DNA of 64,000 nucleotides. Origin: a virus. A model generated the notes under the pieces. It had not been told where the DNA came from. It was given only the letters and a program-made list of their open reading frames with translations, and ran no database searches. Position numbers and translations under genes: made by a program. This document shows positions 5,121-8,570 of this stretch, piece by piece; the stretch's first letter is position 1; each line of letters begins with the position of its first letter. Location: positions 1 to 64,000 of IMG/VR virus record IMGVR_UViG_3300008259_000347; one strand, given 5' to 3'.

Positions 5121-7457
5121 TTAGCTCGCATAAACGTCTTTGCCATTGGCCTTAGTAGCCTTAATTTGTCGTTGTCCAAGATCTTTTTGGACGTCAATTA
5201 GCGTAGTGACCTTAGTATTTAATTGATTTAACGCCACAACTACGTCGTTAAGAGTTGATTCTTTACCTGTGGCAGCAGGAGGTTTAGCTGCGTCTGGTTT
5301 CTTTTCTTCTGGTTTAGCTGCTGTAGTAGCAGGTGGTGTGGCAGGTGCTGATGGTTGTGTAGTACTAGCAGCTTTCTTTTCTTCTTCTTTCTTTTTGATT
5401 TCAGTAGGAATCTCAGCAGCTCTTTCTTTAATTTGGCTAGTAATTGGCATGCCATACTGATCAAACTTTAAGCTTTTCATATCTACTTTGTCCCGATATG
5501 AAGAACTAATATTAGCGTTAACAGTCTCACCCATTTTCTTAAGATCAATGTTACCAGTCTTAGGTGCTCCTGCCATTATGGCTGCTCTTTTTTGTTCGTC
5601 TAAGTCGTTGCCGCTAGTCTTAGGAGCACCTGCCGAGATTGCTGATTTTTTTAGTTCATCTAACTTACTCAGCTGAGTAGTATCCATTACTCCTGATTTA
5701 GGTACAGCTTTCATAGCTCCTTCTAATGTATTCTGAACCAAGGAATTTATATCTTTTGGAGTCATTATGGCTTCCATGCCATGTAACATCATAGGAGTAC
5801 CAGCACCAAAATTTTCTAGCATAGACCCTGTCATAGTAAGAGATCCTTGACTTCTGCTTCCTTTGGGCTGTGTTTCGGCTAACTGTTTTACTTTTTCTAC
5901 AGCAGCTTCGGCTACTTTTTTAACTGCTGGAATAGTTTCATCTATAAGTTTATGTGTAGCTTTGTTGACGGCTCCTGCGCTTTGTAAGAATCCATCAGCT
6001 TCTTTAAATCCTGCATTACCTCCAATATCTATTTCAGATTTTGCTTTCTGTGCAACTGTGGCTTTTTCCATTCCTGGTCGATCTTTAATCATTCCGCCTA
6101 GTGTTCCGTCAGCTCTAAAAGCTGTATTAGCTAGACCTTCTAAGGCTTTGTTTACTTGTCCTTGTATAGGTTGAACAAATTTTTCATTCAATACACTTTG
6201 AACATCGCCTATTCTACCTGTGAGACCTGCTAAAGCTTTAGAAGTAGCATCAACTGGTTGAGCTGTACCTGTTGCGTCTTTGCGCATGCCAGCTTGCGCC
6301 ATTTCTATTTCTTCCATAGCTTTTTTGGCAGCTGCAGCATATCCTTCCTTTGTTTTTAAGTCTATGTTGTTAGCAGCAGCAGTTTTTTCTATAGTTCGAA
6401 CAAAATCAATTTGTTTAGAAGCACCTTCATTAAGAGTTTTACTATAAGTGCCGCCAGCATCGCCTAATGTCATTGCTTGTAACTTTGTGACATCATTCAT
6501 ATCTTTAGTGGCTGCTGCCATCAAATCGAGTCTATGTTTATTACCTTGTTCTTCTCTTTGAGCAGCAGTTAGCGTCCTGTCAGCAGCGGTGTCGGCCATC
6601 TTTTTAGCAGCATTGGCTTGATCTTTATTAATTGCTGCTTGGGTAGCAGCTTCTTTAGTCATGATTTGACCTGTGGCGAATATTTCTTTAAACATTTGCC
6701 CTTGGCCCAATACTTGTGCTTCGTGAAGTTGCTGTCTGGCATTTGCTTCAAATTTAGCAGCTTCCTCTGCACTCATACCTTGAGTTTTTAATCTTATAGC
6801 AGCTTCGAATTGCATGTCTGCTTGCTGCTTTTTCATCATTTCTGCTTGCTCTGCTCTACTTTTTCCTGTGAGTTTGCTCAAGGCGTCCATTTCATTTGCT
6901 AATTTCATCGCATTATTAGCAGCAACAGACTGCATTTCTTGATCGTCTTTGAATTTTCCTCTTAGTGTAACGCCTTGTAGTGCTAAAACTTCGTTAATAT
7001 CTCTAGTAGTAAATCCCATAGCACGTAACTGATCAGTTGCTTTGGAATTATTGTCAAAGAAACTTTTACTGGCAGCAGCAAATCCTTCAGCACTATTAGT
7101 TAGGTTTGTTCCAAATCCTTTTAATATACCGTCCTTTTGAAAACTAAGAAATGATTCTTCCATTTCTTTAGTGCTCATTCTCATACCAACCGCAGCATTA
7201 CTCATGGCAAACAAGTCACCGCTGAAGTTCATGCCTGCTTTAGACAAGTTTTGATACATGTCTGCGCTTTCTGCTACATTTTTCTTGAGAGCTTCAGCTG
7301 AGGTAAACATCACAGATCCGGCTTTTTTGATACCATCTATGGTCATATCAAGTTTGCTCTCGGTATCGCCGCCACCGCCGCCAGAACTGCTTCCGCGTTT
7401 ACGGTCTCTTTTTAGCTCTTCGATCAGTGCGTCAAGTTTGGCATCAGTACTAGACAT
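5121..7457 (-). CDS. Tape-measure-like tail protein
   Basis: 778 residues from ATG 7457 (MSSTDAKL). A longer in-frame start at 7523 would add 22 hydrophobic residues and run into the divergent promoter region, so I prefer 7457. Mostly Ala/Lys/Glu/Met-rich helix. The C-terminal third carries ENFGAGTPMMLHGMEAIM, a motif of the kind common near the C-terminus of tape measure proteins, then a Lys/Pro/Ala-rich linker and a helical tail. In T4 the tape measure is gp29 (590 residues), encoded among baseplate hub genes; here the gene is beside the portal. An internal head protein is the alternative. A late-type box lies 42 bases upstream. Confidence 0.6.
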   Translation of the reverse strand: MSSTDAKLDALIEELKRDRKRGSSSGGGGGDTESKLDMTIDGIKKAGSVMFTSAEALKKNVAESADMYQNLSKAGMNFSGDLFAMSNAAVGMRMSTKEMEESFLSFQKDGILKGFGTNLTNSAEGFAAASKSFFDNNSKATDQLRAMGFTTRDINEVLALQGVTLRGKFKDDQEMQSVAANNAMKLANEMDALSKLTGKSRAEQAEMMKKQQADMQFEAAIRLKTQGMSAEEAAKFEANARQQLHEAQVLGQGQMFKEIFATGQIMTKEAATQAAINKDQANAAKKMADTAADRTLTAAQREEQGNKHRLDLMAAATKDMNDVTKLQAMTLGDAGGTYSKTLNEGASKQIDFVRTIEKTAAANNIDLKTKEGYAAAAKKAMEEIEMAQAGMRKDATGTAQPVDATSKALAGLTGRIGDVQSVLNEKFVQPIQGQVNKALEGLANTAFRADGTLGGMIKDRPGMEKATVAQKAKSEIDIGGNAGFKEADGFLQSAGAVNKATHKLIDETIPAVKKVAEAAVEKVKQLAETQPKGSRSQGSLTMTGSMLENFGAGTPMMLHGMEAIMTPKDINSLVQNTLEGAMKAVPKSGVMDTTQLSKLDELKKSAISAGAPKTSGNDLDEQKRAAIMAGAPKTGNIDLKKMGETVNANISSSYRDKVDMKSLKFDQYGMPITSQIKERAAEIPTEIKKKEEEKKAASTTQPSAPATPPATTAAKPEEKKPDAAKPPAATGKESTLNDVVVALNQLNTKVTTLIDVQKDLGQRQIKATKANGKDVYAS

Positions 7458-7515: not shown

Positions 7516-8343
7516 ATGAGCAATACTAACCCGTTACAACAGTACTTTAGACAGCCTAAAATCTTTATTAGCTTACCTAGTAAAGGTTTATATTACGCTT
7601 CAGGTAGTTTCCAAGGAGACTATAACAATGTTCCAATCATGTCTATGACAGGCATGGATGAAATTTTAATGAAAACTCCAGACGCCCTGTTTAATGGAGA
7701 AGCTGCGTTTAAAGTTATCGAAAGTTGCTGCCCGTTTGTAAAAAATGCTAGGCAAATACCTAGCACAGACGTAGACACATTTTTAACTGCTATAAGAATT
7801 GCTACTTACGGCAATATACTAAACATAAGTCAAGATTGTAAACAATGTGGGGCTGAAAACGATTATGAATTCGATTTACAAAATACAGTTACATATTTTC
7901 AAAATCTTAGATTTATAAACGAAATAAAGATAGACGATACTCTTACTATTAGTATACGACCTCTAAGCTACGAGCAAATAAACTATTTTGGTTTAGAAAA
8001 TTTTAAACTTCAAAAAACAGTAGCACAAGCTTATAATATCACTGACGAAGAAGAAAAAATTCGTATAACAGATCAAGTGTTTGCTGATTTAAGCGAACTA
8101 CAATTAGCCTTATACTTGGCATCCATCGAACAAGTAAAGATTAATAATCAAATAGTTACAGATCAAGAACATATTTACGAGTGGTTAAAAAATATGGACC
8201 GTGATGTGTTTAATTTGATCAAGTCTAAACTCGAAGCTAATAAAAGCCAATGGGAAATTTCAGAACAACCTGTTAAATGCGGTCAATGTGAAGCGGACAA
8301 TATTATCAAACCAATTTTGGATCAAACAAATTTTTTCGTTTAA
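7516..8343 (+). CDS. gp26: Baseplate hub/assembly protein gp26
   Basis: 275 residues in the zero frame. N-terminus PKIFISLPSKGLYY and the central MSMTGMDEILMKTPDALF match the T4 gp26 / T4_baseplate family. Two CxxC pairs (Cys108/111 and Cys255/258) could bind zinc. In T4, gp26 is needed for hub assembly. The frame ends in AAT TTT TTC GTT TAA; the run of As and Ts before the stop forms overlapping slippery heptamers, and a long -1-frame extension follows (see 8328 and 8337). The 275-residue form is then the normal product, with a frameshifted form of about 351 residues expected as a minority. Confidence 0.85.
   Translation: MSNTNPLQQYFRQPKIFISLPSKGLYYASGSFQGDYNNVPIMSMTGMDEILMKTPDALFNGEAAFKVIESCCPFVKNARQIPSTDVDTFLTAIRIATYGNILNISQDCKQCGAENDYEFDLQNTVTYFQNLRFINEIKIDDTLTISIRPLSYEQINYFGLENFKLQKTVAQAYNITDEEEKIRITDQVFADLSELQLALYLASIEQVKINNQIVTDQEHIYEWLKNMDRDVFNLIKSKLEANKSQWEISEQPVKCGQCEADNIIKPILDQTNFFV
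8328..8337 (+). promoter_or_regulatory. Probable -1 programmed ribosomal frameshift site
   Basis: AAATTTTTTC just before the gp26 stop contains two overlapping slippery heptamers read in the gp26 frame as A-AAT-TTT and T-TTT-TTC. A -1 slip at either moves ribosomes into the frame open to 8570. Layout resembles the conserved -1 frameshift in phage tail assembly chaperone genes (lambda G/GT type). No stimulatory structure was modelled. Confidence 0.65.
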
Positions 8344-8570
8344 TCTTACTTCAACTCTCGGATTCTGATATTGCATCAGTTGTCGATAGATATGAAGCAG
8401 AAATTAAAGAATTAAAAGACGAATTTTTTAGATTAAGTTGGTACATGCGAGGTGGTGTTACTGCTGATCAAATGTTTTATCTGTATGGTTATGAAGATAG
8501 ATCAATAATGAACAATATTATCAAAGAAAATATAGAACTGACTAAGAAGACAGGCACTAATTTCTTATAA
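8337..8570 (+). CDS. -1-frame extension of gp26 (tail/hub assembly chaperone T-like or gp51-like segment)
   Basis: 77 codons in the -1 frame, entered after the slippery site. The first in-frame ATG comes only about 40 codons in (inside WYMRGG), and no GTG or TTG with a ribosome site exists earlier, so independent initiation is unlikely. The product is helical and charged, with SDIASVVDRYEAEIKELKDE followed by FFRLSWYMRGG and then MFYLYGYEDRS. In T4, gene 51 (hub assembly) follows gene 26; this segment may be its counterpart made as a fusion. Homology to gp51 was not tested. It ends 3 bases before the convergent neighbour's stop. Confidence 0.6.
   Translation, partial: RLILLQLSDSDIASVVDRYEAEIKELKDEFFRLSWYMRGGVTADQMFYLYGYEDRSIMNNIIKENIELTKKTGTNFL

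Follow-up and report, generated by a model that had tools for sequence, protein, structure and literature searches.

A conserved T_TTT_TTC heptamer and a probable programmed -1 frameshift in the gp26-type tail assembly chaperone gene of T4-related phages

In a 64,000-nucleotide stretch of viral DNA (positions 1 to 64,000 of IMG/VR record IMGVR_UViG_3300008259_000347, hereafter the window), a tail (tape-measure) assembly chaperone is very probably made in two forms: a short product of 275 residues, and a long product of 351 residues that arises from a programmed -1 frameshift. Such a frameshift, just ahead of the gp26 stop and with a short and a long product as its outcome, had been proposed in an initial annotation of the sequence, and this proposal is supported by the conservation of both the slippery heptamer and the -1 frame. 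The features involved are the following:

5121-7457, minus strand: divergent neighbouring gene (about 778 aa), candidate tape measure or structural protein, judging from the arrangement in jumbo relatives
7516-8343, plus strand: putative gp26-type tail assembly chaperone, short form (TAC-N), 275 aa, ATG start, TAA stop
8328-8334, plus strand: overlapping A_AAT_TTT heptamer, probably incidental, not conserved
8331-8337, plus strand: slippery heptamer T_TTT_TTC, with TTT in the P site and TTC in the A site, separated from the zero-frame stop by a single sense codon
8337-8570, plus strand: C-terminal extension (TAC-C) in the -1 frame, 77 aa, RLILL...WYMRGG...FL
8349-8397, plus strand: candidate for a weak stimulatory stem-loop (-13.1 kcal/mol, z -1.6), located 11 nt downstream of the heptamer

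The zero frame ends in ...GAT CAA ACA AAT TTT TTC GTT TAA, with its stop at 8341-8343, and the open stretch of the -1 frame spans 8292 to 8570. The 77 codons up to 8570 that had been reported for this frame were confirmed from the sequence; the extension is encoded by 8337-8567 and is followed by a stop at 8568-8570, giving a long form of 274 + 77 = 351 residues. Both heptamers named in the initial annotation are present and in phase for tandem -1 slippage, which would generate the identical product ...QTNFFRLILL... from either, but only T_TTT_TTC is conserved; A_AAT_TTT was ruled out as the shift site by its lack of conservation in relatives. The bare TTTTTTC string is not rare in the window (33 copies, with 29 expected). 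In slippery phase within long ORFs, T_TTT_TTC is found only twice in 19,602 codons, so that the chance of meeting it in the final four codons of any one gene is about 4e-4, while in-phase A_AAT_TTT is common (19 in the same 19,602 codons).

On comparison of the available sequences, the decisive evidence for a signal rather than a chance occurrence is the conservation of T_TTT_TT[C/T/G], a check that the initial annotation had itself proposed. The motif stands at the equivalent position in 116 of 119 non-redundant loci, down to approximately 22% protein identity, and the loci that bear it fall into five groups: the window clade, jumbo phages (RaK2, GAP32, 121Q, PA5oct), cyanophages, Aeh1-type phages and Rhizobium phages. 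It was found in all 43 IMG/VR relatives in which the end of the gene is present (41-100% identity), in 15/15 jumbo phages at 22-31% identity (T_TTT_TTC in 13, T_TTT_TTT in two), and in 95/95 further loci from cyanophages, Aeh1/phiAS5-type phages and jumbo phages; it also occurs in cyanophage Sf-FS3, in Rhizobium phages IC12 and RL38J1, the latter with the variant T_TTT_TTG, and in YB07, OC, S13 and Milchi. The codon ahead of TTT TTC may be AAT, AGT, TCT, CAT, GAT, GCT or CGT, such that the residue varies (N, S, D, H, A, R) and the codon-final base is T without exception, the T-ending share for those same residues elsewhere in these genes being 0.45-0.67. Furthermore, the second codon of the heptamer is TTC in 112 of the 116 loci, even though most of these groups use TTT more often than TTC for Phe. 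The three loci without the heptamer are those of the Pseudomonas phage Cygsa01 (L065), Vibrio phage D506 (L163) and the Ackermannviridae phage Vi01 (L164); all of them carry [AC]TT TTC ahead of the stop and retain the homologous -1 frame, and the TAATG stop-start overlap seen in D506 and Cygsa01 suggests that these two may reach the long form by another route.

The -1 frame itself has the characteristics of a coding sequence. It contains no stops, whereas the other two frames have 6-10 per sequence, and the extension aligns without gaps over 77 residues, stop-free, in 27 members of the window clade; its pN/pS is 0.42 in that clade and 0.23 in cyanophages. These values indicate a protein under purifying selection. 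The explanation by a sequencing error, or by a gene in decay that an indel has broken in two, has nothing in its favor beyond the out-of-frame layout itself; the site is identical in two independent metagenome contigs (L001 and L002), and conservation under purifying selection in more than 100 relatives refutes this explanation, whose probability is practically nil. One contig (L027) has an extension that departs abruptly after DDREAYY (position 1229), at a point where near-identical neighbours carry on, and is probably chimeric. The AlphaFold2 model of the extension is a helical domain (pLDDT 88). No Pfam or PHROG family matched the extension of the window, no relative of solved structure was identified by sequence, and a fold search of BFVD returned nothing below E 0.3, the top entries being small unnamed or uncharacterised proteins that are suggestive only.

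An overlapping -1 ORF, the lack of a start of its own, and selection at the protein level, as expected of a lambda G/GT-type arrangement, were all observed. The initial annotation had stated that the -1 frame has no usable start before its 40th codon; the absence is genuine, but the first ATG, GTG or TTG is the ATG at 8445, which is residue 37 after the slip, the earlier count having begun a few codons upstream. This bears on the reading of the downstream frame as a separate small gene that is expressed from its own start, through internal initiation or stop-start reinitiation. Separate CDSs are indeed annotated in many relatives, as 'gp51, baseplate hub assembly catalyst' in cyanophages and as 'hypothetical' in jumbo phages, and an ATG lies a few bases past the stop in cyanophages, with TAATG spanning it in Cygsa01 and D506. 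However, in the window the first possible start falls after the long, conserved first helix of the extension (AlphaFold2 model), the conservation of the -1 frame begins at the heptamer itself and not at a start codon, and a separate gene would leave an invariant heptamer without a reason; moreover, gp51 of T4 is a fused long form. A separate gene is thus very unlikely.

The RNA downstream of the heptamer, where a structure had been suggested to lie, gave a result that depends on the lineage: a covarying stem was detected in the sister subclade, one with weaker support in cyanophages, but only a weak one in the window. In the 15 sequences of the sister subclade, an 11-bp stem begins 6 nt past the heptamer, with 96% of cells pairing and compensatory changes in 5 of the 11 pairs; its covariation score was reached by 0 of 500 shuffles, and the signal was lost when partners were slid. 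In cyanophages, an 8-bp stem lies 7 nt past the heptamer, with two-sided changes in one pair. No consensus RNA fold was found downstream of the heptamer in the nearest subclade of the window, and it therefore seems that the stem differs by lineage while the heptamer is constant. Stems located 6-7 nt downstream have the spacing typical of ribosomal -1 sites, and this argues against a shift that originates in the RNA polymerase slipping along the T run during transcription. The latter mechanism could draw on the homopolymeric nature of the site (T6), yet six is a short run for polymerase slippage, and the run usually stays at six and is then followed by C, in a fixed codon phase. We consider transcriptional slippage slightly less probable still than a separate gene, and frameshifting by the ribosome is retained as the preferred reading.

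The short form is recognizable as a member of the T4 gp26/gp51 family, the match to PF12322 and phrog_150 spanning most of its length. A profile search matched PF12322 (T4_baseplate) at 2.6e-15 over residues 58-274 and phrog_150 (baseplate hub) at 1.9e-18 over residues 2-265, and fold comparison of its AlphaFold2 model (pLDDT 89) with viral 'T4-like baseplate hub assembly' models gave E 1e-21; relatives of solved structure were found neither by sequence nor by fold. It is of note that the short form carries CxxC pairs at residues 108/111 and 255/258, which are invariant columns in the alignment and zinc-ribbon-like, and that T4 gp26 has cysteine pairs as well. A terminator-like hairpin (9 pairs, loop of 4, T tail) is also present on the minus strand at 7745-7766, where it lies inside the gp26-type reading frame and precedes, on the upstream side, the start of the divergent gene for the 778-aa protein.

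The 78,208-base virus record that holds the window contains a single PF12322 gene, as does each of the nine other records compared with it, while T4 has two, genes 26 and 51. Both T4 products match PF12322, and gp51 has an additional C-terminal segment; from its sequence, gp51 can be described as a complete paralogue of gp26 to which a C-terminal domain is joined, that is, a hard-wired long form. The downstream region had been called 'gp51-like', a term that is only partly borne out. The cyanophage -1 extension does match the C-terminus of gp51 (hhalign P 6.7e-5), as well as phrog_634, but direct comparison of the window extension with gp51 gave no match, and gp51 corresponds to the whole paralogue with its added domain rather than to the extension. 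The link runs only through intermediates: the window extension aligns with those of jumbo phages, and the joint window and jumbo-phage profile matches the cyanophage profile (P 1.4e-4). The short form is thus the counterpart of gp26, and the long form, going by the chained extension matches, is most likely that of gp51. The families phrog_634 and phrog_18291 match the -1 extension alone (in the versions of cyanophage L067 and of GAP32, L050), and were therefore probably built from pieces of the long form that had been called as separate genes.

The large neighbouring gene is divergent from the chaperone gene, a layout that is shared with jumbo relatives, where the neighbour is annotated as 'structural protein' or 'similar to tail tape measure'; sequence searches with the ~778-aa protein of the window yielded no tape measure or other family match. 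The gp26 homologue of phage CBB is itself annotated as 'structural protein', a label that may be a poor fit for a chaperone, which would be absent from virions. Elsewhere in the window, a 146-aa protein encoded on the minus strand at 10430-10870 matches phrog_447, whose label 'NAD synthetase' may be incorrect, as well as several homing endonuclease families.

Computation established the slippery site and how well it is conserved, the constraint on the -1 frame, the presence of one gene copy and the protein family; the occurrence and efficiency of slippage, the function of the products as chaperones and their partners are inferred. In the proposed mechanism, the majority of ribosomes would terminate at the TAA at 8341-8343 and release the 275-aa short form. 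In a minority, tRNA-Phe on TTT in the P site and on TTC in the A site would move back by one base onto TTT_TTT, after which CGT would be read next and translation would continue for 77 codons, yielding the 351-aa long form, in which the C-terminal domain is predicted to be helical. If the system works as gpG/gpGT of lambda does, the tape measure protein would be coated by many short and few long subunits, the extension would recruit tail-tube subunits, and both forms would depart before completion of the tail.

In lambda gpG/gpGT the slippery sequence is GGGAAAG, unlike T_TTT_TTC, and the large neighbour is divergent here rather than downstream. The likeness lies in a -1 frameshift near the end of the chaperone gene that adds a C-terminal domain, and in that phage the tape measure protein is coated by the short chaperone together with its frameshifted long version, which also bring in the tube subunit (PMC5009743); the same 2016 review regards T4 as an exception to the conserved G-T frameshift. 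The chaperone locus of Vandenendeviridae and Andersonviridae, as in phage Adele, likewise has a -1 frameshift with a conserved T-rich signal, GTTTTT, and its -1 frame stays open for over 200 bp, but it belongs to other phage families and uses another slippery sequence (PMC12846349). T4 has a short/long pair of its own, in which gp26 corresponds to the short form and gp51 to the long form, but the pair stems from two paralogous genes on opposite strands, with no frameshift site.

The initial annotation had suggested that frameshifting may be undescribed for T4-like phages, which is incorrect. The abstract of an earlier study reportedly describes conserved frameshifting across several groups of T4-like phages, and the use of genes 26 and 51 by T4 itself, and we take the chaperone family concerned to be that of T4 gp26/gp51, as here. 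These chaperone genes were identified in T4-like phages by Vladimirov, Gautam and Davidson (2022, Virology 566:9-15, doi 10.1016/j.virol.2021.11.003), who are credited in a 2025 paper (PMC12846349) with poly-T signals for -1 frameshifting in the TAC-N genes of T4-like phages, and who are cited in PRFect (PMC10885494) for T4-like phages that have a short gene and a fused long gene, and no frameshifting. As represented in these citing passages, their system resembles the present one in its short and long forms and in the poly-T signal within the TAC-N gene; the principle was thus already published in 2022, and the finding described here adds to a known type. What may be new is its breadth, which takes in jumbo phages and the freshwater metagenomic clade of the window, the fact that T_TTT_TTC hardly varies, and the stems that show covariation. 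On balance, we lean toward a single T_TTT_TTC frameshift, with stimulatory stems that vary by lineage, as a feature of almost every T4-related phage with only one gp26-type gene, among them jumbo phages in whose records the frameshift is not annotated.

The two frames are joined in none of the cyanophage and jumbo-phage records shown, which points to an unannotated gene structure, and the stimulatory stem supported by covariation provides a testable candidate. If the proposal is correct, phrog_634 ('baseplate hub assembly catalyst') and phrog_18291 would represent pieces of the long form and not separate proteins. The frameshift reading would also explain why T4 has two related hub-assembly genes: its gene 26/51 pair would be a derived arrangement, in which gene duplication has replaced recoding.
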